This document shows, one piece after another, positions 23,415 through 35,059 of a DNA stretch of 64,000 nucleotides (positions are counted from its first letter, which is position 1; each line of letters opens with the position of its first letter). This DNA is from Kaistia adipata DSM 17808 (GTDB lineage Bacteria; Pseudomonadota; Alphaproteobacteria; Rhizobiales; Kaistiaceae), in NCBI RefSeq assembly GCF_000423225.1, contig NZ_KE383992.1:188971-252970 (forward strand), given 5' to 3'. The notes under the pieces were generated by a model. It ran no database searches. It saw only the letters and a program-made list of their open reading frames with translations, and was not told the DNA's origin. The position numbers were made by a program, and so were the translations under genes.

Positions 23415-24983
23415 ATGCCGCCTGCCGCCGAAATCCTGCCGGGAGATGCTGCCGGGTCGCAGCGCGACACGGCGGTGCTGAACGGATCCGCCCTCCGCCT
23501 GTCGACGCTGTCGCTGATCGGCCGCGGCCTGCTGCACGTCACCCCCTGCGAGGCCTGCCTCGTCCATGTCGGCGAGGCCTATGAGGCGGTACGCGGCGCC
23601 GTCGAGGGCGGCCGCCCGCTCTATGGCGTGACGACCGGCGTCGGCGCGATCAAGGACCGCGCGGTGGCGCTGGCCTCCGCTGCGGACCGCACCGACCTCG
23701 TGCGCGCGCATCATTTCGGCGTCGGCGAGCCGCTGGCGCCGGAAATCGTCCGCGCCGGCATCGCCATCCGCGTCAACACCGCGCTTTCCGGCCTGGTCGG
23801 CTGCAGTCCCGAGCTGATCCGCGCCTATGTGGCCGCGCTCGACGCCGACATCGTGCCGGTGGTCCGCCGGCTCGGCTCGATCGGCGCCGCCGATATCGGC
23901 CTGATGAGCCAGGTGGCGACGGCCCTCGCCGGCGAGGGCCAGGTCTTCCACCGCGGCGTGCTCAAGCCGGCAGAGGAAGCGCTGCGCGAGGCCGGGCTGA
24001 CGCCGCATGTCTTCCGCCTCAAGGACGCGCTCTCGGCCGTCAGCACCAACGCGCTGACGGTGGCGAGCGCCGGCGCCACGCTGATCGAGGCGGCGCAGAT
24101 GGTGCGCGTCGCCATGGCCACGGGATCGAGCGCGGCCGCCGCGCTGCGCGCGTCGCCGGAACCGTGGCGCGTCGCCATGAAGATCGGCTCCCCGCGCGAG
24201 GCAGCCGCCGGCACCGTGCTCACGGCCGTGGCCGAGGCCTTCCCCTGGACTCCCGCGACGCATCTGCACGACCCGCTCTCGATCCGCATGATGGCGCAGA
24301 TCTTCGGCGCCTCGGCCGGCGTCGTCGCCTTCGCGGCCGCGGCGGTCGAGGCGGCAACGGCGCGGCCCGACGACAATCCGGTCGTCATCGAGGGCATCCC
24401 GATGACCTCCGGCGGCTCGCTGCCGCTCGAGCTCGCGCTCACCTTGCAATCGGTCGGGCCGGGCCTCGCCCATCTCGCCCGCAACATCTTGAACCGCATC
24501 GTGCTGATCGCCAATGGCGGCCGCGGCGTGCTGCCCACCAACCTCGTCTCGGAGGAGACCGACGCCACCGGATTCGGCCCGCTGGTGAAGCTCGCCGGCG
24601 ATCTCGCCAGCCGCGTCATGGGCGAGCTCGCGCCCGTTTCCGCCATGCCGCTGCTGATCGCCGGCGGCATGGAGGACGAGGCGATGTTCGCGCCCTTGAT
24701 CGTCGAACGGCTGAACCGGCAGGTCGCGGCGCTGAAGATGATGACGGCGATCGAGGCGCTGCTGGCGGCGCAGGGGCTCGACATGCAGGGGTTGAAGCCG
24801 ACGGGGCTGGTCGCCATCGTGCACGCCTGCGTGCGCTCGGAAGTCACCTTCCTCGACAAGGACCGGGCGCTGTCGCTCGACATCGAAACCATCGAGCGCA
24901 ACCTTTTCCAGCCGGCGCTCCTGGAAACGGTCAGGAATTTCTACGAATCCATCACCACGGACGAACTCATTTTCTCGCGTTGA
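23415..24983 (+). CDS. MIO-less aromatic amino acid lyase homologue, putative ergothionase
   Basis: The 522-residue product has the histidine ammonia-lyase fold, with LYGVTTGVGAIKD near 70, LHDPLSIRMMAQIFG near 285 and DDNPVVIEG near 320. At the place where all ammonia lyases form the MIO electrophile from Ala-Ser-Gly, it reads GSIGAADIGLM, so the triad is Ala158-Ala159-Asp160. An ammonia lyase cannot work without MIO. Ergothionase, a relative that expels trimethylamine from ergothioneine, does not need it. The downstream betaine importer, urocanase homologue, desulfhydrase, hydantoinase and carbamoylase support ergothionase, giving thiourocanate and trimethylamine. Activity is inferred. Confidence 0.82.
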   Translation: MPPAAEILPGDAAGSQRDTAVLNGSALRLSTLSLIGRGLLHVTPCEACLVHVGEAYEAVRGAVEGGRPLYGVTTGVGAIKDRAVALASAADRTDLVRAHHFGVGEPLAPEIVRAGIAIRVNTALSGLVGCSPELIRAYVAALDADIVPVVRRLGSIGAADIGLMSQVATALAGEGQVFHRGVLKPAEEALREAGLTPHVFRLKDALSAVSTNALTVASAGATLIEAAQMVRVAMATGSSAAAALRASPEPWRVAMKIGSPREAAAGTVLTAVAEAFPWTPATHLHDPLSIRMMAQIFGASAGVVAFAAAAVEAATARPDDNPVVIEGIPMTSGGSLPLELALTLQSVGPGLAHLARNILNRIVLIANGGRGVLPTNLVSEETDATGFGPLVKLAGDLASRVMGELAPVSAMPLLIAGGMEDEAMFAPLIVERLNRQVAALKMMTAIEALLAAQGLDMQGLKPTGLVAIVHACVRSEVTFLDKDRALSLDIETIERNLFQPALLETVRNFYESITTDELIFSR

Positions 24984-25043
24984 CGTTTGCGTCACCCTAA
25001 GAACAATCGGGACCTGAACCAGCGACTGAAGAGGAATTCAGCC

Positions 25044-25955
25044 ATGAAAGCCTTGAAGACCATCGTGGCCGCGGCCACGATCCTCGCATCCGTCGGCGCC
25101 GCGCAGGCGGCCGATGTCGTCGTCTCCTCGAAGATCGACACCGAGGGAACGCTGCTCGGCAACGTCATCGCGCAGGTGCTCGCGGCGAACGGCATCTCCG
25201 TCGAGGACCGGATCTCGCTCGGCGGCACGCCGGTGGTGCGCAAGGCGATCACGGCCGGCGAGGTCGACATCTATCCCGAATATACCGGCAACGCCGCCTT
25301 CTTCTTCAACAAGGCCGACGATCCGCTCTGGAAGGACGCGGCCAAGGGATACGAGGAAGCGAAGAAGCTCGACTACGACGCCAACAAGATCGTCTGGCTG
25401 GCACCCTCGCCCGCCAACAACACCTGGGCGATCGCCCTGCGTGGCGAGGCGGCCGAAGCCAACAAGCTGAAATCGCTCACCGATTTCGGCAAGTGGGTGA
25501 CGGATGGCGGCACGGTGAAGCTGGCCGGCTCGGCCGAGTTCGTCAACTCCGCCGCGGCGCTGCCGGCCTTCCAGACCGCCTATGGCTTCACGCTGAAGCC
25601 GGAGCAGCTGCTGGTGCTCTCGGGCGGCGACACCGCCGCGACGATCAAGGCGGCGGCGGAGCAGACCGACGGCGTCAACGCCGCCATGGTGTATGGCACG
25701 GACGGCGCGATCTCGGCCGCCGGCCTCGTCGTGCTCGACGACGACAAGGCCGTGCAGCCGGTCTATGCGCCCGCGCCGATCGTCCGCGAGGCGGTGTTGA
25801 AGAAGTTCCCCAAGATAGCCGAGGTGCTGCAGCCGGTGTTCGCTGAGCTTGATCTGAAGACGCTGCAGGACCTGAACGGCCGCATCCAGGTCGGCGGCGA
25901 GCCGGCCAAGGAGGTCGCCAAGAGCTGGCTGACCCAAAAGGGCTTCCTGAAGTAG
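25044..25955 (+). CDS. Betaine-type ABC binding protein (OsmF/YehZ family), putative ergothioneine SBP
   Basis: This 303-residue periplasmic protein has a Sec signal peptide cleaved after AQA at residue 22. It then shows the OpuAC-type fold with VVVSSKIDTEGTLLGNVIAQVL, GGTPVVRKAITAGEVDIYPEYTG and APAPIVREAVLKKFP. Members bind quaternary ammonium compounds through aromatic boxes. Ergothioneine is a trimethylammonium betaine, and the known bacterial ergothioneine importer EgtUV uses the same binding-protein class. The ATG at 25044 follows GAGGAA, 60 bases after the lyase. The family is certain; the ligand is inferred from the neighbours, and glycine betaine or proline betaine remain possible. 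Confidence 0.88.
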   Translation: MKALKTIVAAATILASVGAAQAADVVVSSKIDTEGTLLGNVIAQVLAANGISVEDRISLGGTPVVRKAITAGEVDIYPEYTGNAAFFFNKADDPLWKDAAKGYEEAKKLDYDANKIVWLAPSPANNTWAIALRGEAAEANKLKSLTDFGKWVTDGGTVKLAGSAEFVNSAAALPAFQTAYGFTLKPEQLLVLSGGDTAATIKAAAEQTDGVNAAMVYGTDGAISAAGLVVLDDDKAVQPVYAPAPIVREAVLKKFPKIAEVLQPVFAELDLKTLQDLNGRIQVGGEPAKEVAKSWLTQKGFLK

Positions 25956-25976
25956 AACGCCGCCTTCCGCCGGCCA

Positions 25977-25992
25977 TGCTTCACGTGAAACC
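25977..25992. other. parS-like 16-bp site
   Basis: TGCTTCACGTGAAACC differs from the consensus ParB-binding site TGTTTCACGTGAAACA at only two outer positions and keeps the perfect TTCACGTGAA palindrome. It lies 22 bases after the binding-protein stop codon, in a 213-base gap inside the transporter operon. No parA or parB is in the window, so a chromosomal outlier site or chance are both open. Confidence 0.45.
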
Positions 25993-26168
25993 GGCGCGGC
26001 GGCGCAGCGTCGCCGCACCGGGTTAACGACGCAGCCATGCGTTAACCTCCCGTTAGCCAATATCACCTTGCGGCAGGGGAATTTCGTCCTAAGCTCCGAG
26101 TTCGCGCCGGACCGCCCGGATGGCGCGCCACGCGGCCCCGGCTCCTGCCAAAGAAGGGATCAACCGGC

Positions 26169-27359
26169 TTGACGGACGCCAGCCAGACCGCCGCTGCCCC
26201 GGTCCCCCTCTCCGCCCGCCTCGACCGGGTCGGGGTCGTGGTGGCGCTGATCGCCATCGTCGGCATGGACTGGCAGCCCTTCGCGACGCTGAAGCCGAAC
26301 CGGCTGGTCTCCGGCCAGGGGCTCGGCCTCGGCTCGGCGCTGCCGACGTTCTGGGCGGCGATCGGCATCGGCATCCTGTCGCTCGCCACCATCCTCGCCG
26401 TGCTGCGCACCGGCGCGCGGCTGCGGCTCGCCACCGGAATCGTCTCGCTGCTCATGCTCGCGCTGCTGATCGGCCTGGTGCCGGCGCATGTGGTGCCGCC
26501 GGACAACAGCTTCGCCCGCGTCTCGCCGGGCGCCGGCTTCTGGCTGATGGCGCTCGCCTTCGCGGTGCTGACCACCGACGCCATCGCCAAGCTGAAGCTC
26601 GGCCCCCTCGCCCGGCTGCTCCTGCTGGCGGCGGCCATCGCCGCCACGGCGCTGATCCTCGGCTCCGGCCATTGGGACGGGCTGTCGATCCTGAAGGAAT
26701 ACGCCACCAACGCCGACAAGTTCTGGCGCGAGGGACGGCAGCACATCCTGCTCGCCGTCGCCTCGCTCGCCGCGGCGATCGTCGTCGGCCTGCCGCTCGG
26801 CATCGCCTGCCACCGCCACGCGACCTTGCGCGGCGTCACGCTGCCGGTCCTCAACATCATCCAGACCGTGCCGTCGATGGCGATGTACGGGCTGATGATC
26901 GTGCCGCTCGGCCTGTTCGCCGCCTCGTTCCCGATCGCGGCCCAGCTCGGCATCCGCGGCATCGGCACGGCGCCGGCGCTGATCGCGCTGTTCCTCTATT
27001 CGCTGCTTCCCGTCGTCGCCAACACCGTGGTCGGCCTCGCCGAGGTGCGGCGCTCGGTGGTCGAGGCAGCCGAGGGCATGGGCATGACCAAGCACCAGCG
27101 CCTGATGCAGGTCGAGCTGCCGCTGGCGCTGCCCGTCATCCTGACCGGCATCCGCATCGTGCTGGTGCAGAATATCGGCCTCGTCACCATCGCCGCGCTG
27201 ATCGGCGGCGGCGGCTTCGGCACCTTCGTCTTCCAGGGCATCGGCCAGGCGGCGACCGACCTCGTCCTGCTCGGCGCGGTGCCGACCATCGCGCTCGCCT
27301 TCACCGCAGCCGTCCTCCTCGACGCCGTCATCGAACTTACCGAAAGGCGCCGGCTTTGA
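26169..27359 (+). CDS. Betaine-type ABC permease, YehY-like
   Basis: The 396-residue inner-membrane protein has an N-terminal region of about four extra helices (about residues 20-165), as in YehY. The binding-protein-dependent permease domain follows, with VVGLAEVRRSVVEAAEGMGMTKHQRLMQVELPLALP as the ATPase-contacting loop. The start is a TTG at 26169 with AAGAAGGGA as ribosome site. The 3' end overlaps the ATPase gene in a TTGA. The order SBP, long permease, ATPase, short permease is the same as in the E. coli yehZYXW system. Confidence 0.9.
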   Translation: MTDASQTAAAPVPLSARLDRVGVVVALIAIVGMDWQPFATLKPNRLVSGQGLGLGSALPTFWAAIGIGILSLATILAVLRTGARLRLATGIVSLLMLALLIGLVPAHVVPPDNSFARVSPGAGFWLMALAFAVLTTDAIAKLKLGPLARLLLLAAAIAATALILGSGHWDGLSILKEYATNADKFWREGRQHILLAVASLAAAIVVGLPLGIACHRHATLRGVTLPVLNIIQTVPSMAMYGLMIVPLGLFAASFPIAAQLGIRGIGTAPALIALFLYSLLPVVANTVVGLAEVRRSVVEAAEGMGMTKHQRLMQVELPLALPVILTGIRIVLVQNIGLVTIAALIGGGGFGTFVFQGIGQAATDLVLLGAVPTIALAFTAAVLLDAVIELTERRRL

Positions 27360-28294
27360 TCGAACTCGACCATGTCAGCCGCCGCTTCGGCGAGCAGCTC
27401 GCCGTCGACGACGTCTCGTTCGCCGTCGAGCGCGGCACCATCACGGTAATCGTCGGCACGTCGGGCTCCGGCAAGTCGACGACGCTCCGGATGATCAACC
27501 GGCTGATCGAGCCGACTTCCGGCACGATCACCATCGACGGCAAGGACACGACCGCCGTCTCCGGCGAGGAACTGCGGCGCGGCATCGGCTATGTCATCCA
27601 GGGCAACGGCCTGTTCCCGCACTGGACGGTCGCCCGCAACATCGCCACCGTGCCGACCCTGCTCGGCTGGGATTCCGCGAAGATCGCCCGGCGCGTCGAC
27701 GAGCTTCTCGCGCTCTTCAGCATGAAGCCGGAGGATTTCCGGGAAAAATTCCCGCATCAGCTCTCGGGCGGCGAGCAGCAGCGCGTCGGCGTGGCCCGCG
27801 CGCTCGCGGCCGAGCCCGGCCTCTTGCTGATGGACGAACCGTTCGGCGCGCTCGACCCGATCATCCGCGCCAAGGCGCAGGAGGACCTGCTCGCCGTGCA
27901 GCGGCGGCTCGGCATCACCGTCGTCCTCGTCACGCACGACATGGAGGAGGCGATCCATCTCGGCGACCGGATCGCCGTGATGGACGGCGGCAAGCTGCTG
28001 CAATACGCGCCGCCGGCCGAGATCCTCGCCAAGCCCGCGCCCGGCTTCGTCGCAAAGCTGGTCGACGGCGCCGACCGGCCGTTCCGGCTGCTGTCGCTGG
28101 CGCCGGTCTCGTCCATCGTCGAGCCGGGCACGGCCGAGGGGCCGCCCATCCTCGAGACGGCGACGCTCCGCGACGCGCTGTCCGAGCTGCTCTGGCACCG
28201 GCGCGACGCACTGCCCGTCACCGCCGCCGACGGCAGCACGCGCGGAAAGATCTCGCTCAGCAACCTCGTCGCCCATGCGGGAGGGGCGGCGTGA
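27356..28294 (+). CDS. Betaine-type ABC ATPase, YehX/ProV-like
   Basis: This 312-residue ATPase powers the importer. It carries Walker A GTSGSGKST near residue 36, the signature LSGGEQQRVGVARAL near 140, Walker B LLLMDEPFGALDP, and the switch histidine in VTHDMEEAIHLGDRI. It has a C-terminal extension of about 70 residues, as in the osmoprotectant ATPases, but I could not recognise a complete CBS pair in it. The TTG start overlaps the permease stop. The stop overlaps the next GTG start, so all three membrane-complex genes are translationally linked. Confidence 0.92.
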   Translation: MIELDHVSRRFGEQLAVDDVSFAVERGTITVIVGTSGSGKSTTLRMINRLIEPTSGTITIDGKDTTAVSGEELRRGIGYVIQGNGLFPHWTVARNIATVPTLLGWDSAKIARRVDELLALFSMKPEDFREKFPHQLSGGEQQRVGVARALAAEPGLLLMDEPFGALDPIIRAKAQEDLLAVQRRLGITVVLVTHDMEEAIHLGDRIAVMDGGKLLQYAPPAEILAKPAPGFVAKLVDGADRPFRLLSLAPVSSIVEPGTAEGPPILETATLRDALSELLWHRRDALPVTAADGSTRGKISLSNLVAHAGGAA

Positions 28295-29049
28295 GCCGCC
28301 TCATCGGCCCGGCGGCGCGGCTCTCGGCGCTCGCCCTGCTGCTGGCGCTCGTGCTGCGGCCGGACTGGTTCGAGCCGATCCTGAAACCGTTCACCGAGAA
28401 CAACGCACCGGCGATCTATACGCAGTCGAGCCTGCTCAGCCTGACGCTCGCCCATCTCGGCCTCGTCGCTGTGGCGAGCGTCATCGGCACGGCGCTGGCG
28501 CTCGTCATGGGCGTGTTCGTGACCCGACCGATGGGGGCGGAGTTCCTGCCGCTGTCGAGGAGCCTCGTCAATATCGGCCAGACCTTTCCGCCGGTCGCCG
28601 TGCTGGCGCTCGCCGTGCCGGTCGTTGGCTTCGGATTGAAGCCGACCCTGATCGCGCTCGTGCTCTACGGACTGCTGCCGATCTTCGAGAACACGATCAC
28701 CGGTTTGAAGGAAGTGCCGGAAAACGTCGTCGAGGCGGCGCGCGGCATGGGCCTGTCGCCGCAGCAGCAGCTCTTTCGCGTCGAGCTGCCGCTGGCGCTG
28801 CCCGTCATCCTCGCCGGCATCCGCCTCTCGGTCGTCATCAACATGGGCACGGCGACGATCGGCTCGACGGTGGCGGCCAAGGGCCTTGGCGAGGTGATCA
28901 TCGCCGGGCTGCTGACCTCCAACACCGCCTTCATCCTGCAGGGCGGCATCATCGTCGCGCTGCTCGCCGTGCTGCTCTACGACGCGCTGTCCATCCTCGA
29001 GAACCGCATCGCCAAGCGCACCGGCCGGCTGGCGGAGGTGGCGGGATGA
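28291..29049 (+). CDS. Betaine-type ABC permease, YehW-like
   Basis: The 252-residue protein has six membrane segments and the loop LKEVPENVVEAARGMGLSPQQQLFRVELPLALP that couples to the ATPase. It is a short paralogue of the YehY-like permease and forms the second half of the channel. The GTG start overlaps the ATPase stop codon. It is the last gene before a 514-base repeat-filled gap, so transcription of the downstream hydrolase genes may need a second promoter. Confidence 0.92.
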   Translation: MSRLIGPAARLSALALLLALVLRPDWFEPILKPFTENNAPAIYTQSSLLSLTLAHLGLVAVASVIGTALALVMGVFVTRPMGAEFLPLSRSLVNIGQTFPPVAVLALAVPVVGFGLKPTLIALVLYGLLPIFENTITGLKEVPENVVEAARGMGLSPQQQLFRVELPLALPVILAGIRLSVVINMGTATIGSTVAAKGLGEVIIAGLLTSNTAFILQGGIIVALLAVLLYDALSILENRIAKRTGRLAEVAG

Positions 29050-29563
29050 CTTCGTTCGCCGAACCGTCATCCCTGGAGGTCTCAGGCGCCGTCCCTTCCC
29101 CTCTCCCATGGGGAGAGGTCGACGGCCGCAGGCCGGCGGGTGAGGGGTTGTGGCCTCACCGGAGAGTTCCCTACCCCCTCACCCGGAGCTTCGCTCCGAC
29201 CTCTCCCCATGGGAGAGGTGAAGGAGCCGGAGCAAACTCCCTCTCCCGCCCGCGGGAGAAGGTTGGGGTGAGGGCCATTCCAAACGCACAATCCGTCATC
29301 CCGGCGAAGGCCGGGATCCATCGGCCGGAAGCCAACCACCTCGGACGGTGTTCATGGGCCCCGGCCTTCGCCGGGGCGACGGGTGCATGGGAAGCGCCGT
29401 GCGTCCTTCGAGACGGCCCTTCGGGCGCTCCTCAGGATGTTGAGAGCGGGGATCCATATCGGCCTTGCGAAGTCAGAAAACACAAACCTCAACATGCTGA
29501 GGAGCGGCCGACGGCCGCGTCTCGAAGCACGCGCTCGTCTCGATATAGCCCCCGGGTGACGCC
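29050..29563. repeat. Intergenic mosaic of palindromic repeats inside the island
   Basis: This gap holds no convincing gene. From left to right it contains family A (29097-29223), a related CTCTCCCGCC..GAGGG fold (29239-29274), and family B palindromes at 29293-29322 (GTCATCCCGGCGAAGGCCGG) and 29354-29382. An inverted family C pair follows at 29403-29443 and 29486-29531. It separates the lyase-transporter half of the island from the hydrolase half. Confidence 0.85.
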
Positions 29564-30937
29564 ATGAGCGATTTCGACCTCGTTCTCTCCGGCACCGTCG
29601 TCACCGCCGACCGCGTCCTTGCCGGCGGCTTCGTCGCCGCGCGCGACGGCAAGATCGCGCTCGTCGGCCAGGGTGTGGCGCCGGCGGCGCGCGAGCGGCA
29701 CCTTCTGGGCGAGGCGCTGATCCTGCCCGGCGCGATCGACGCGCAGGTGCATTCGCTGAGCCAGAGGGACCAGGAGGATTTCGTCTGGTCGACCCGCTCG
29801 GCCGCCGCCGGCGGCGTCACCACCATCGTCGACATGCCCTATGACGAGGGCAACCTCGTCTGCTCCGCCGAGGCGGTCGCGAGAAAGGTGGCCCATGCCG
29901 GCCCGCAGGCGCGCGTCGACTTCGCGCTCTACGGCACCATCGATCCCGAGGAAGGCCCGGCACGCATCGCCGAAATGGTCGCGGCCGGCGTCGCGGCGTT
30001 CAAGTTCTCGACCTTCGGCACGGATCCGAAGCGCTTTCCCCGCATCGCGCCGGCCCTGCTCGCCGACTGCTTCGCCGCAATCGCACCGACCGGGCTCACG
30101 GCCGGCGTGCACAACGAGATCCACGAAGCGGTCGACGCCCATATGGTCCGCCTCCGCGCCTCCGGCGTCACCGACTGGCGCGCGCATGGCCTGTCGCGGC
30201 CACCGCTGACCGAGCTGCTCGCCGATGTCGAAATCTACGAGACCGGCGCGCTCACCGGCTGCCCCGCGCATGTCGTGCATTCGTCGCTGGCGCGCGGGGC
30301 CGAGCTCGCGGCGCGCTACCGCGCCGAGGGCTTCGCGACGACCGTCGAGGTCTGCATCCACTACCTGACGCTCGACGAGGAGAACGACGTCCGCCGTCTC
30401 GGCGGCAAGGCGAAGATAAACCCGCCGATTCGCTCGCGCGCGGAGGTCGAGGCGCTCTGGCGCCAGGTCGCGCTCGGCCATGTCACCCTCGTCTCGACCG
30501 ACCATGTCTCCTGGTCGGAGGACCGCAAGACCAGGCCCGCCATGCTCGACAATGCCTCGGGCGTGCCGGGGCTCGAGGTGATGGTGCCGCTGTTCGTCAA
30601 GGGCGCGCTGGAGCGCGGCATCCCGCTCACCGCCGCCGCGCGCCTGATGGCGGCAAACCCGGCCAGGCATTTCCGCATCGACCACGAGAAGGGCGCGCTC
30701 GAGGTCGGCAAGGACGCCGACATCGTCGTACTGACGCCGGAGCCGCTCCTCTATGACGCAGCGGCAAGTGGGCATAATGTCGTGGGTTGGAGCCCCTATA
30801 ACGGCATGACGCTCCCCTGGCGCGTGAGCAGAACGTTCCTGCGCGGGATCAAGGCCTTCGACGGACGACACGTGCTGGCCGAGCCGGGATCGGGCCGCTT
30901 CGTCCGGCCGCCGGTCACCCTGCCGATCGGACGCTGA
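29564..30937 (+). CDS. Dihydroorotase/hydantoinase-family amidohydrolase
   Basis: The 457-residue protein belongs to the cyclic-amide hydrolases. The metal site begins PGAIDAQVHSLS (Asp59, Gln61, His63), a DxQxH variant of the usual DxHxH. It continues with the lysine expected to be carboxylated (Lys147 in AAFKFSTFG), histidines in CPAHVVHSS and CIHYLTL, and Asp313 in STDHVSW. In the proposed pathway it opens hydantoin-5-propionate to N-carbamoylglutamate. The carbamoylase gene starts 8 bases downstream, a pairing typical of hydantoin utilisation. The replaced histidine suggests a changed metal centre. Confidence 0.85.
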   Translation: MSDFDLVLSGTVVTADRVLAGGFVAARDGKIALVGQGVAPAARERHLLGEALILPGAIDAQVHSLSQRDQEDFVWSTRSAAAGGVTTIVDMPYDEGNLVCSAEAVARKVAHAGPQARVDFALYGTIDPEEGPARIAEMVAAGVAAFKFSTFGTDPKRFPRIAPALLADCFAAIAPTGLTAGVHNEIHEAVDAHMVRLRASGVTDWRAHGLSRPPLTELLADVEIYETGALTGCPAHVVHSSLARGAELAARYRAEGFATTVEVCIHYLTLDEENDVRRLGGKAKINPPIRSRAEVEALWRQVALGHVTLVSTDHVSWSEDRKTRPAMLDNASGVPGLEVMVPLFVKGALERGIPLTAAARLMAANPARHFRIDHEKGALEVGKDADIVVLTPEPLLYDAAASGHNVVGWSPYNGMTLPWRVSRTFLRGIKAFDGRHVLAEPGSGRFVRPPVTLPIGR

Positions 30938-30945
30938 ACCGCATC

Positions 30946-32202
30946 ATGCGCACCAATCTGCCCATCGACGAGACCGGGCTCTGGGACGATCTGATGGCGC
31001 TCGCCGCGCGGACCGAACCCGACCGGCCCTGGACCCGGCGCGCCTTCTCGCCAATGTTCCTCGAGGGTCGCGCCTTCGTCGCCGCGCGCATGCGCGAGGC
31101 CGGCCTCGCCGTCCGCATCGATCCCGCCGGCAACCTGATCGGTCGCCGCGAGGGGCGCCGGGCGGATGCGCGGGCGATCGTGATCGGCTCGCACAGCGAC
31201 ACCGTGCCGGATGGCGGCCGCTTCGACGGCACCGCCGGCGTGATGGCCGGCATCGCCGTCGCCCGCAGCCTGGCCCGGGACGGCCGGGAACTGGACCACG
31301 CCGTCGAGATCATCGACTGCCTGGCCGAGGAGGTCTCGATCTTCGGCCTGTCCTGCATCGGCAGCCGCGCCGTCGCCGGCGCGCTGTCGGCGGAACAGCT
31401 GAACCGGCAGGAGCCGACCGGCGAACGGCTGGCCGCCGCGATCGAGCGGATGGGCGGCAGCATCGACCATCTCGGCGAGGCGCGGCGCACCGACATCGCC
31501 GCCTATCTGGAGCTGCATATCGAGCAGGGGCCGGTGCTCGCCGACCAGCGCCGCGACATCGGCATCGTCACGGCGATCGCCGGCATCACGCGGATCGAGA
31601 TCACCGTCGAGGGCCGCGCCGACCACGCCGGCACGACGCCGATGACGCTCCGCCAGGACGCGCTCGCCGGCGGCGCCGCCGTCGTCACCGCCATCGCCAA
31701 GGATGCGCGCCGCCGCGCCGCCGCCGGCCATGGCCATTTCGTCGCCACGGTGGGCGAATTCCGGATCGAGCCGAACGCGGCCAATGTGGTGCCGGGCCGG
31801 GTCACCATGCTCGTCGACGCGCGCGCCGAGGAGCGCGGCTTCCTCGAGGGCTTCGTCACCGAGCTGCCGCCGCTGCTGCAGCGGGCGCTCGGCGGCACGG
31901 GCACGCGGCTGGCCGATTTCCGCGTCATCTCCGACGCGCTGCCGGCGCTCTCCGATCCGATGCTGCTCGACGTGCTGGAAGGCGCGAGCGACACGCTCGG
32001 CCTCGACGCGATGCGCATGGCGTCCGGCGCCGGCCACGACATGGCCTGGTTCTCGCGCATCGCGCCGGCGGCGATGATCTTCATTCCATCGAAGGACGGC
32101 CGCAGCCACACGCCGGAGGAATGGTCGGAGCCCGGCGAGATCGCCGCCGGCGCCGCCGTGCTGCACGAGGCGCTGCTGCGGCTCGACACGATGCTCGCCT
32201 GA
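30946..32202 (+). CDS. M20 N-carbamoyl-L-amino acid hydrolase
   Basis: The 418-residue protein has all metal and catalytic residues of the HyuC/allantoate amidohydrolase group: GSHSDTV (His83), GRFDGTAG (Asp94), CLAEEVS (Glu128 and Glu129), LELHIEQGP and SGAGHDMAWFS, with the dimerisation lid starting at GRADHAGTTPM. In this context the likely substrate is N-carbamoyl-L-glutamate, giving glutamate, ammonia and carbon dioxide as the last step of ergothioneine breakdown. Allantoate or ureidoglycolate would be the alternatives, but no allantoin genes lie nearby. Confidence 0.9.
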   Translation: MRTNLPIDETGLWDDLMALAARTEPDRPWTRRAFSPMFLEGRAFVAARMREAGLAVRIDPAGNLIGRREGRRADARAIVIGSHSDTVPDGGRFDGTAGVMAGIAVARSLARDGRELDHAVEIIDCLAEEVSIFGLSCIGSRAVAGALSAEQLNRQEPTGERLAAAIERMGGSIDHLGEARRTDIAAYLELHIEQGPVLADQRRDIGIVTAIAGITRIEITVEGRADHAGTTPMTLRQDALAGGAAVVTAIAKDARRRAAAGHGHFVATVGEFRIEPNAANVVPGRVTMLVDARAEERGFLEGFVTELPPLLQRALGGTGTRLADFRVISDALPALSDPMLLDVLEGASDTLGLDAMRMASGAGHDMAWFSRIAPAAMIFIPSKDGRSHTPEEWSEPGEIAAGAAVLHEALLRLDTMLA

Positions 32203-32252
32203 GACCGAACCGGAATGCCTCGCTCGAACCGCTCCTGAAAGGAACCGCCATC

Positions 32253-33389
32253 ATGGGCCGCATACTGACCGAGAGGGACGTCGAGGCCGCCGTGCGGGGT
32301 GGCTCGGTCTATGCGGCGGGCGGCGGCGGTTGGGCCGACCATGGCCGCATGCTCGGCCTCGCCGCGGTCCGCATCGGCCGGCCCGAGCTGGTCTCGATCG
32401 AGGAACTGGAAAAGGACGACTGGGTGGCGACGGCGGCGGCGATCGGCGCGCCGGCCGGCACCACGGCGTGGGAGATGCAGGGCGTCGACTATGTCCACGC
32501 CGTGCGGCTGCTGCAGGAGGCGCTGGGCGAGCCGATCGCGGCGCTGATGGTCGGCCAGAACGGCCGCTCCTCGACGCTGAACGGCTGGCTGCCCTCGGCC
32601 GTCCTCGGCACCAAGGTGCTCGACGCGGTCGGCGACGTGCGCGCCCATCCGACCGGTGACATGGGCTCGATCGGCCTCGCCGCCTCGCCGGAGGCGACCA
32701 TCCAGACGGCGGTCGGGGGAAACAGGGCCGAGAACCGCTACATCGAGCTGGTGGTGCGCGGCGCCACCGCCAAGGTCTCGCCCGTGCTCCGGACGGCTTC
32801 CGACATGTCGGGCGGCTTCATCGCCTCGGCCCGCAACCCGGTCCGCGCCAGCTATGTGAAGAAGAACGCGGCGCTCGGCGGCATCTCGATGGCGCTGGCG
32901 CTCGGCGAGGCGATCCTCGCGGCGGAGGGCAAGGGCGCCGGCAAGGGGTCGGCGAGCGCCGTGATCGACGCGATCTGCAGGGTGACGGGCGGGACAATCG
33001 CCGTCTCGGGCCGGATCGCGAAAAAGGACGTCGTCTACACCAACTCCGCCTTCGACATTGGTCAGGTGGTGATCGGCAGCGGCGCCAAGGCAACGACGCT
33101 GCACGTCATGAACGAATACATGGCGATCGACGACGCCGACGGCGGCCGCCTCGCCACCTTCCCGGACGTGATCACCACGCTCGACAAGGACGGCGAGCCG
33201 CTCTCGGTCGGGCAGCTCCATGTCGGCATGACGGTGCATGTGCTGCATGTGCCGAAGGCGATCATCCCGCTCTCGGCCGGCGTGCTCGATCCCTCCGTCT
33301 ACCCGCCGGTCGAGGCGGCGATGGGCATCGAGATCGCCCGCTATATCTTCGAGGAAGCGACGAAGAAGAAGCGGAAGGGCAAGAAGTGA
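32253..33389 (+). CDS. DUF917 protein, putative thiohydantoin desulfhydrase
   Basis: DUF917 enzymes include the desulfurase that acts on (S-methyl) thiohydantoins in ergothioneine breakdown. The 378-residue product starts MGRILTERDVEAAVRGGSVYA with the glycine cluster AAGGGGWADHG and has the typical family course through HPTGDMGSIG and VLHVPKAIIPLS. The predicted step converts 3-(5-oxo-2-thioxoimidazolidin-4-yl)propionate to hydantoin-5-propionate and sulfide. The ATG at 32253 follows GAAAGGA. The stop overlaps the urocanase homologue by one base, coupling consecutive pathway steps. Confidence 0.85.
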   Translation: MGRILTERDVEAAVRGGSVYAAGGGGWADHGRMLGLAAVRIGRPELVSIEELEKDDWVATAAAIGAPAGTTAWEMQGVDYVHAVRLLQEALGEPIAALMVGQNGRSSTLNGWLPSAVLGTKVLDAVGDVRAHPTGDMGSIGLAASPEATIQTAVGGNRAENRYIELVVRGATAKVSPVLRTASDMSGGFIASARNPVRASYVKKNAALGGISMALALGEAILAAEGKGAGKGSASAVIDAICRVTGGTIAVSGRIAKKDVVYTNSAFDIGQVVIGSGAKATTLHVMNEYMAIDDADGGRLATFPDVITTLDKDGEPLSVGQLHVGMTVHVLHVPKAIIPLSAGVLDPSVYPPVEAAMGIEIARYIFEEATKKKRKGKK

Positions 33390-35059
33390 TGCAGCACCCG
33401 CGCTATCCCGTCACCTCCGGCACGACGCTCCGCTGCAAGGGCTGGCGGCAGGAGGGGCTGCTGCGGCTTCTGGAAAACGTGCTCTCGGTCGGCGAGGACC
33501 CGGACGGGCTCGTCGTCTACGCAGCCCTCGGCAAGGCGGCGCGCAACTGGGCGGCGCATGACGCGATCGTCGACGCGCTGATGACGATGGACGAGGACGA
33601 GACGCTGGTCGTCCAGTCCGGCAAGCCGATCGGACTGCTGAGGACGCAGGTGCAGGCGCCCATCGTCATCATGGCCAACTGCAACATCGTCGGCCAATGG
33701 GCGAAGGCGGAATATTTCTACGAGCTGGAGAAGAAGGGGCTGATCTGCTGGGGCGGGCTGACGGCCGGCGCCTGGCAATATATCGGCAGCCAGGGCGTCA
33801 TCCAGGGCACCTACGAGATCTTCATGCGAATCGCCGAACGGCACTTTGGCGGCGATCTCGCCGGGCGCTTCATCCTCTCGGCCGGGCTCGGCGGCATGGG
33901 CGGCTCGCAGCCGCTCGCCGGCCGCATGGCCAACGCCGCCATCCTCGTCGTCGACGTCGATCCGGAGCGGGCGGCGAAGCGCAAGGCGATCGGCTATGTC
34001 GACGAGATCGCGCCCGACCTCGACACGGCGCTGCAGCGGATTGCGCACGCCCGCCACCACCGCGAGGCGCTCTCCGTCGCCCTCGTCGGCAACGCCGCCG
34101 AGATCTACCCCGAGATCGTCCGGCGCGGCATCTATCCCGACATCGTCACCGACCAGACCTCGGCGCACGACCTCGTCTATGGCTATGTGCCGGCCGGGTT
34201 GCCGCTCGCCGAGGTGCGGGCGCTGCGCCAGTCGGACCCGGCCAGGCTGATGGCGCTGTCGCGCGCGTCGATCGTCCCGCATGTCGAGGCGATGCTCGAT
34301 TTCCAGCGCCACGGCTCGGTGGTGTTCGACAATGGCAACCTGATCCGCACCCAGGCGAAGGCGGCCGGCGTCGCGAACGCCTTCGACATCCCGATCTTCA
34401 CCGAGGCGTATCTGCGGCCGCTGTTCGCCCGCGCCATCGGGCCGTTCCGCTGGATGGCGCTCACCAACGATCCCGAGGACATCCGCCGCATCGACGAGCG
34501 CGTGCTGAACCTCTTTCCCGACGACCGCATCGTCGCCAACTGGATCCGCCTGGCGCGCCAGAACGTGCCGTTCGAGGGGCTGCCGGCCCGCATCGCCTGG
34601 CTCGGCCATGGCGCGCGGACGGAACTGGCACTCGCCGTCAACGAAATGGTGGCGTCGGGCGAGCTCACCGGGCCGATCGCGTTTTCGCGCGATCACCTCG
34701 ACGCCGGCGCGATGGCGCATCCGAACATCATGACGGAGAATCTCCACGACGGCTCCGACGCCATCGCCGACTGGCCGCTGCTCGACGCCATGGCGCTCTC
34801 CGCCTCCGGCGCCGACCTGGTCACGGTGCATTCGGGCGGCGGCGGCTATGCCGGCTACATGACCTCGGCCGGCGTCACGCTCGTCGCCGACGGCACGCCG
34901 GAAGCCGCCGAACGTCTGGAGCGGGCGCTCACCAACGACACCTCGCTCGGCGTCATGCGCTACGCCGATGCCGGCTACGCGGACGCGCTCGACGAAGCGG
35001 AAAGGAAGGGCATCCAGCGCTTCGACGTGCCGTCCGAGCCGGTGGTCCGCCGGGGCTGA
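33389..35059 (+). CDS. Urocanase family protein, putative thiourocanate hydratase
   Basis: The 556-residue product is a clear urocanase homologue with GLGGMGGSQPLAG and the NAD-binding core. Urocanase adds water to urocanate using NAD as electrophile. The family signature FQGLPxRIC reads FEGLPARIAW here, with Ala403 in place of the active-site-region cysteine. No hutI, hutG or true hutH is present, so a histidine route cannot be completed. Next to a desulfhydrase and an MIO-less lyase, the substrate is probably thiourocanate. The ATG overlaps the desulfhydrase TGA; a GTG one codon upstream is less likely. Confidence 0.85.
   Translation: MQHPRYPVTSGTTLRCKGWRQEGLLRLLENVLSVGEDPDGLVVYAALGKAARNWAAHDAIVDALMTMDEDETLVVQSGKPIGLLRTQVQAPIVIMANCNIVGQWAKAEYFYELEKKGLICWGGLTAGAWQYIGSQGVIQGTYEIFMRIAERHFGGDLAGRFILSAGLGGMGGSQPLAGRMANAAILVVDVDPERAAKRKAIGYVDEIAPDLDTALQRIAHARHHREALSVALVGNAAEIYPEIVRRGIYPDIVTDQTSAHDLVYGYVPAGLPLAEVRALRQSDPARLMALSRASIVPHVEAMLDFQRHGSVVFDNGNLIRTQAKAAGVANAFDIPIFTEAYLRPLFARAIGPFRWMALTNDPEDIRRIDERVLNLFPDDRIVANWIRLARQNVPFEGLPARIAWLGHGARTELALAVNEMVASGELTGPIAFSRDHLDAGAMAHPNIMTENLHDGSDAIADWPLLDAMALSASGADLVTVHSGGGGYAGYMTSAGVTLVADGTPEAAERLERALTNDTSLGVMRYADAGYADALDEAERKGIQRFDVPSEPVVRRG

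Follow-up and report, generated by a model that had tools for sequence, protein, structure and literature searches.

The present study concerns a 64,000-nucleotide stretch of the Kaistia adipata DSM 17808 genome (the window), in which nine forward-strand open reading frames (ORFs) span exactly positions 23415–35059. We find that these nine genes very probably form an ergothioneine utilisation operon. A preliminary description of the stretch had named nine same-strand genes of these families, with one candidate for each published step of ergothioneine breakdown. ORF calling and Pfam bear out the former. As to the latter, four of the five enzymes exceed the curated NCBIfam equivalog cut-offs for the ergothioneine pathway and the fifth, a lyase, has an ergothionase-like signature. 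Thus the catabolic half is strongly supported, and the uptake part is likely.

The five-step chemistry of ergothioneine breakdown is established in other bacteria. Judging from family, tree and gene order, we infer that the window proteins would perform it in the following course. The importer would take up ergothioneine, and the lyase, which has no MIO cofactor, would remove trimethylamine to leave thiourocanate. The urocanase-family hydratase would convert this to 3-(5-oxo-2-thioxoimidazolidin-4-yl)propionate, and the desulfurase would swap sulfur for oxygen with release of sulfide to give hydantoin-5-propionate. ErtD would then open the hydantoin ring to yield N-carbamoyl-glutamate, which ErtE would cleave to glutamate, ammonia and CO2.

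This pathway has been described before. Enzymes of Burkholderia sp. HME13 are said to represent the ErtA–ErtE type of bacterial ergothioneine catabolism, and Beliaeva reportedly reconstituted the five steps in vitro in 2021. The window has one candidate for each of these reactions, but its lyase falls in a separate clade and its operon encloses importer genes, which are the less familiar parts. In the literature, we found no paper joining Kaistia with ergothioneine, nor one joining DUF917 with ergothioneine.

Enzymes downstream of the lyase

The thiourocanate hydratase (urocanase family, 33386–35059) scores 1026.8 with NF058530 against a cut-off of 930, and the thiohydantoin desulfurase (formerly DUF917, S-Me-THD; 32253–33389, inside a longer ORF) 579.0 with NF058529 against 440. 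ErtD, the hydantoin-5-propionate amidohydrolase (29564–30937, a Pfam amidohydrolase), reaches 766.7 with NF058538 (cut-off 600), and ErtE, the N-carbamyl-L-glutamate amidohydrolase (30946–32202, a Pfam M20 peptidase), 580.7 with NF058540 (cut-off 520). The general HutU model gives the window hydratase 694.9 against 375, but every tested hydratase of this group exceeds that cut-off, so this model does not discriminate.

The same enzyme families, with a desulfurase whose Pfam family is named for the S-methyl reaction, would also suit degradation of S-methyl-ergothioneine with release of methanethiol. Both S-methyl models, however, are failed by wide margins (hydratase 750.1 against 880; desulfurase 282.1 against 450 with NF058532), whereas the thione models are passed. 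As a control, the Agrobacterium tumefaciens Ach5 pAt cluster (L180, 13881–26603) exceeds the S-methyl cut-offs and stays below those of the thione models (desulfurase 555 versus 272, hydratase 976 versus 725), which shows that the models discriminate the two pathway types. The Ach5 cluster shares the enzyme families with the window, and a proline/glycine betaine-type ATP-binding cassette (ABC) importer adjoins its lyase gene. It differs in its molybdopterin S/N-oxide reductase and glutathione S-transferase, which have no counterpart among the nine genes, and in a lyase on the side of histidine ammonia-lyase (HAL) in the tree. The S-methyl pathway was thus rejected on the model scores plus the control and appears highly improbable. 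Conversely, a Burkholderia arboris replicon (L176) scores like the window, passing the thione-type hydratase and desulfurase models, and carries ErtD-, ErtE- and lyase-like genes nearby.

Phylogenetically, the hydratase behaves as an ergothioneine enzyme would, and the phylogeny suggested in the preliminary description gives a clear grouping. A 48-row tree groups the window hydratase with 7ned and six operon hydratases (100/99), apart from 39 HutU proteins, and a Burkholderia enzyme is in this group. The HutU rows come from 39 of 40 loci (L029 was dropped for one internal stop); the candidates were 6 of the 78 collected operon hydratases and one plasmid hydratase, with six used overall, and the program flagged 7ned and the S-methyl row as long branches. 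At the 91 HutU-conserved columns where 7ned differs, the window hydratase has the 7ned letter in 59, the HutU letter in 21 and another in 11. We take 7ned to be a thiourocanate hydratase. A point against our reading is that its PDB title says only urocanate hydratase. The structure model of the hydratase was set aside at a mean predicted local distance difference test (pLDDT) score of 54.2.

Ordinary histidine utilisation was considered and rejected, as the genome has no other urocanase and the hydratase stands apart from HutU in the tree. No second urocanase, aromatic lyase or OsmF protein turned up in searches of the window's own genome (98.9% complete), nor did an EgtD.

Separately, a Deinococcus plasmid (L182, 5524–12574) carries a divergent ert-like cluster with a MIO-less lyase and an ErtD-like gene annotated as two pieces. 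Its desulfurase (394.9) and hydratase (767.2) lie below the thione and S-methyl cut-offs alike.

The MIO-less lyase

The first gene (23415–24983) encodes an aromatic-lyase-family protein (PF00221) predicted to be an ergothionase, that is, an ErtA-like trimethylamine lyase, from its motifs, its TM-score to 6s7j and the conservation of the operon. By alignment and model, the protein adopts the HAL fold but lacks the MIO cofactor triad. As the preliminary description had held, it is MIO-less: the HAL motif GASGD becomes GAA-D, so the triad is shorter by one residue. The same shortening is common to 18 rhizobial-type operon lyases, the Treponema denticola ergothionase (6s7j) and the B. arboris and P. 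denitrificans rows, and the last two adjoin ert genes. It occurs in none of 8 HAL rows (ASG in 7, ACG in 1).

Two further motifs follow this division. DPL is present in 17 of the 18 rhizobial-type lyases (L034 has DQL) and in the 6s7j, B. arboris and P. denitrificans rows, while 7 of 8 HAL rows have DPY. GVGxxKD is present in 15 of the 18 and in the same three rows, and in 0 of 8 HAL rows. The window lyase therefore carries an ergothionase-like active-site signature, and we predict that it would release trimethylamine from ergothioneine.

Structurally, the lyase model (pLDDT 83.3, predicted TM-score 0.87) fits 6s7j with a TM-score of 0.86 by query length and a root mean square deviation of 2.6–2.7, as compared with 0.79–0.84 and 3.3–4.6 for the HALs listed. 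Its pLDDT falls below 50 at residues 71–82, 156–159 and 410–423, the segments holding the active-site motifs, so the model does not show the active site.

In an unrooted tree of 32 of the 84 collected rows, with seven long end branches, a branch of 96/91 separates the rhizobial and the 6s7j–Burkholderia–Paracoccus groups from HAL. The MIO-less lyases of Ach5 and the Deinococcus plasmid are placed on the HAL side of this long-branched tree, so the family may have lost MIO repeatedly. Among named loci with a complete lyase, those of Kaistia granuli (93%) and K. defluvii (89%) come nearest, K. granuli DSM 23481 having the same operon, and the identity to the B. arboris lyase-like protein is 28.9%. 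The one annotated relative read (L181) is labelled only 'aromatic amino acid ammonia-lyase'.

Several observations weigh against the ergothionase assignment. The window lyase is 26.3% identical to 6s7j and 26.4% to Pseudomonas putida HAL, and the phmmer scores tie (129.7 bits to 6s7j, 129.6 to HAL 7tqr). Foldseek E-values put three HAL chains above 6s7j, and in the long-branched tree the window lyase falls in a clade of its own. The lyase matches no ErtA or ergothionase model of NCBIfam either, but this was dismissed as contrary evidence because 6s7j itself matches none.

The low identity to the ergothionase of known structure would also admit other substrates for the lyase: hercynine or another trimethylammonium acid, with entry into an ordinary histidine-type route, or ergothioneine sulfonate, for which an Agrobacterium radiobacter pathway is published (Yan 2022, as cited in PMC13405746). 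Yet the neighbouring hydratase and desulfurase match thione-specific models, a urocanate route would find no other urocanase in this genome, and by our reasoning a sulfonate route would not obviously require the desulfurase. We consider such a substrate improbable, if slightly less so than S-methyl-ergothioneine, and retain ergothioneine as the predicted one.

A cluster elsewhere (L158, G086:C3, 1090–5606) has a MIO-keeping lyase (GSVGASGDL) immediately followed by a desulfurase of the thiohydantoin type (599 bits) and a hydratase of the thiourocanate type (963 bits), and then by a Pyr_redox_2 protein. Its gene content would suit the breakdown of a free-amine compound, 2-thiohistidine for example.

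The OsmF-type importer

Between the lyase and ErtD lie four genes for an importer of the OsmF/YehZYXW type, with two permeases and one ATPase. The periplasmic substrate-binding protein (OpuAC; 25044–25955, from an ATG at 25044 within a longer ORF beginning at 24987) is of the OsmF/YehZ type, passes the OsmF model NF049931 (515.7 against a cut-off of 400) and is the predicted ergothioneine (betaine) receptor. The permease in the YehY-like place (26169–27359) has a long N-terminal part, with PF00528 at residues 207–394 of 396. The ProV/YehX-like ATPase (27356–28294, PF00005) starts with TTG inside a longer ORF, overlapping the preceding stop, and scores 286.2 bits with the proV subfamily, below the cut-off of 326.6. 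The permease in the YehW-like place (28291–29049) also has PF00528.

The linkage of this importer to the breakdown genes is strong. In the class sample, OsmF is found in 9 of 385 genomes, thiourocanate hydratase in 5 and both in 4 (0.12 expected; hypergeometric 7e-7), and the two are side by side in 3 of the 4. This count includes the window's own genome and ignores kinship, which lessens its weight in favour of our reading. Among 14 Kaistia genomes, the six carriers of the hydratase each have one OsmF match, within the operon and of the operon subclade. Seven others without the operon, in intact assemblies, each have one OsmF set of another lineage (100/96), with no adjoining ert gene and grouping weakly with E. 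coli OsmF.

The sequence of the binding protein, by contrast with its gene neighbourhood, is that of the OsmF family. Its relatives are 5teu, 5uve and 4nd9, and it scores 372–464 bits with OsmF-type chains (about 460 with 4nd9 and 5teu) versus at most 98 bits with EgtUC chains. The known ergothioneine importer EgtU is marked by Gly244 and Phe293 and contacts the carboxylate through Arg379, according to PMC9732360. The matching places here, mapped by motif via AfProX and not by superposition, hold Asp, Tyr and Ser. By the same motif mapping, the cage Asn and two Tyr are retained and one Tyr is replaced by Trp. The window importer thus resembles EgtU in its OpuAC-type binding protein and these cage residues, and differs from it in the absent hallmarks, the weak score and the linkage to breakdown genes.

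In the binding-protein tree (three repeated and two identical rows dropped), a single subclade (100/100), set apart from E. coli OsmF, contains the operon-linked proteins together with unlinked ones of Brucella (5teu), Agrobacterium (4nd9) and genome G093. The linked ones form a clade within it in 0 of 200 bootstrap trees. Eleven columns separate 13 linked from 13 generic rows, but most of them are shared by the unlinked subclade members, so no sequence feature found marks ergothioneine specificity. Binding-protein homologues occur in 145 plasmid records, 78 of them Sinorhizobium, with best listed identities of 72–74%, and the one plasmid locus read of the close Sinorhizobium meliloti homologue has no ert gene near.

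The wider survey divides the enzymes from the importer as well. Of 404 stretches encoding the desulfurase, the best 80 were taken with four further loci (84 in total, one genome counted twice). The five enzyme genes stand in the same order without an OsmF binding protein in 60 loci, whereas all nine genes in the window order appear in 7 (six genomes). The binding protein is present in 10 loci (nine genomes), three of which lack either ErtD alone or both ErtD and ErtE. The remaining loci are partial, several being interrupted at contig ends. The importer carriers include Kaistia, Devosia, Salinarimonas, Martelella, strain UR115 and G262.

OsmF-type importers are known for osmoprotection. It is conceivable, though the lesser possibility, that the enzymes degrade ergothioneine while the importer is a general osmoprotectant transporter of the glycine betaine/choline type travelling in the operon. 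Such a transporter would explain the family membership, the pocket motifs common to unlinked OsmF proteins, the missing EgtU hallmarks, the subclade shared with 5teu, 4nd9 and the G093 protein, the S. meliloti homologue away from ert genes and the 60 loci doing without it. It accords less with the six Kaistia carriers having the operon-subclade OsmF in the operon where the seven non-carriers have another lineage, and with the OsmF–ert linkage in several further genera.

On balance, we lean to ergothioneine as the main substrate of the importer, which we infer from linkage, given the absent hallmarks and the homologues outside ert operons. The preliminary description had proposed a self-contained system with a dedicated importer. 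Its catabolic half stands on the models and motifs, while uptake by the importer is likely and the OsmF clade, the lack of EgtU hallmarks and the unlinked S. meliloti homologue speak against calling it dedicated. A fuller proposal is that ergothionases have a second deep lineage in the lyases of Kaistia and rhizobia and also that an OsmF-type importer, with a binding mode unlike that of EgtU, was recruited for catabolic ergothioneine uptake, replacing the generic OsmF lineage in the operon-carrying Kaistia. We offer this twofold proposal tentatively, with slightly more doubt than belief.

An accessory operon at a variable site

In the window, three adjacent gene pairs of the operon share 4-base overlaps. 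A spacer at 29050–29563, between the last permease and ErtD, contains five inverted-repeat pairs resembling repetitive extragenic palindromic (REP) sequences, three with 27–29 nt arms. One of these palindromes has 63 copies in the genome (28 + 35; at most 3 mismatches; 13 exact), while its reversed control has 0. On its left the operon is bordered by M17 aminopeptidase and NlpC/P60 genes, on its right by FkbM methyltransferase and nucleoside hydrolase genes, none of which belongs to the ergothioneine system.

There is no regulator gene among the nine, and no tRNA was found in the window. The promoter scan gave 1 match versus 0.5 in shuffles, and the terminator scan 2 matches, fewer than the 4.1 in shuffles. 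The GC content of the operon (0.700) is close to that of its flanks (0.676 and 0.680), and a composition-marked island was rejected on this ground.

The hydratase exceeds its cut-off in 6 of the 14 Kaistia genomes, and G751, in 720 contigs, shows hydratase ends only. In all six carriers, the nine genes lie between the aminopeptidase and nucleoside hydrolase genes. One assembly (G756) breaks between the last permease and ErtD, the place of the REP spacer in the window. Among the seven operon-less genomes, six have 12–13 kb of other genes at the site (L243–L248), the one annotated being a tad/cpa pilus cluster (L244, 3381–14695). In the seventh (G745, L249), the site is empty, with some 150 bases separating the two flanking genes. 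The site alternately holds the operon, other genes or nothing, so the site is variable and the operon accessory, without a compositional mark. The 'island' of the preliminary description thus survives as a conserved block of nine genes at one site, the term itself being loose.

Beyond Kaistia, the hydratase exceeds the cut-off in 5 of 385 genomes of the class sample, with no score between 963 and 722 bits, and in 6 of 398 of the phylum sample, all from the taxonomic order to which the window belongs. In 2 of the 5 class genomes, the 20 kb read holds poorer clusters, one with lyase, desulfurase and hydratase (L034) and one with desulfurase, hydratase and a MIO-type lyase (L035). The five-gene and nine-gene arrangements recur across loci and Kaistia genomes, so the gene set is more than chance. 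The ert operons of Rhizobium, Shinella, Sinorhizobium and other rhizobia share the order lyase–ErtD–ErtE–desulfurase–hydratase with the window, but no OsmF transporter separates their lyase and ErtD genes. Two loci of Rhizobiaceae, read over a wider span, have an SBP_bac_8-type ABC system or a major facilitator superfamily transporter nearby. The ert operon of Shinella sp. H4-D48 (L047, 760–3438) is near genes presumably, from their translations, for a carnitine dehydrogenase and a BKACE enzyme.

In summary, many relatives of the rhizobia appear to have ergothioneine breakdown as an accessory trait, and some of them encode an importer alongside it. The OsmF/YehZYXW-type betaine importer embedded in this catabolic operon is a specific candidate for the transporter through which Gram-negative bacteria would take up ergothioneine for breakdown, and the lyase is of a type without a curated family of its own. 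Bacteria having the ert operon with the importer may compete for ergothioneine and release trimethylamine and sulfide.

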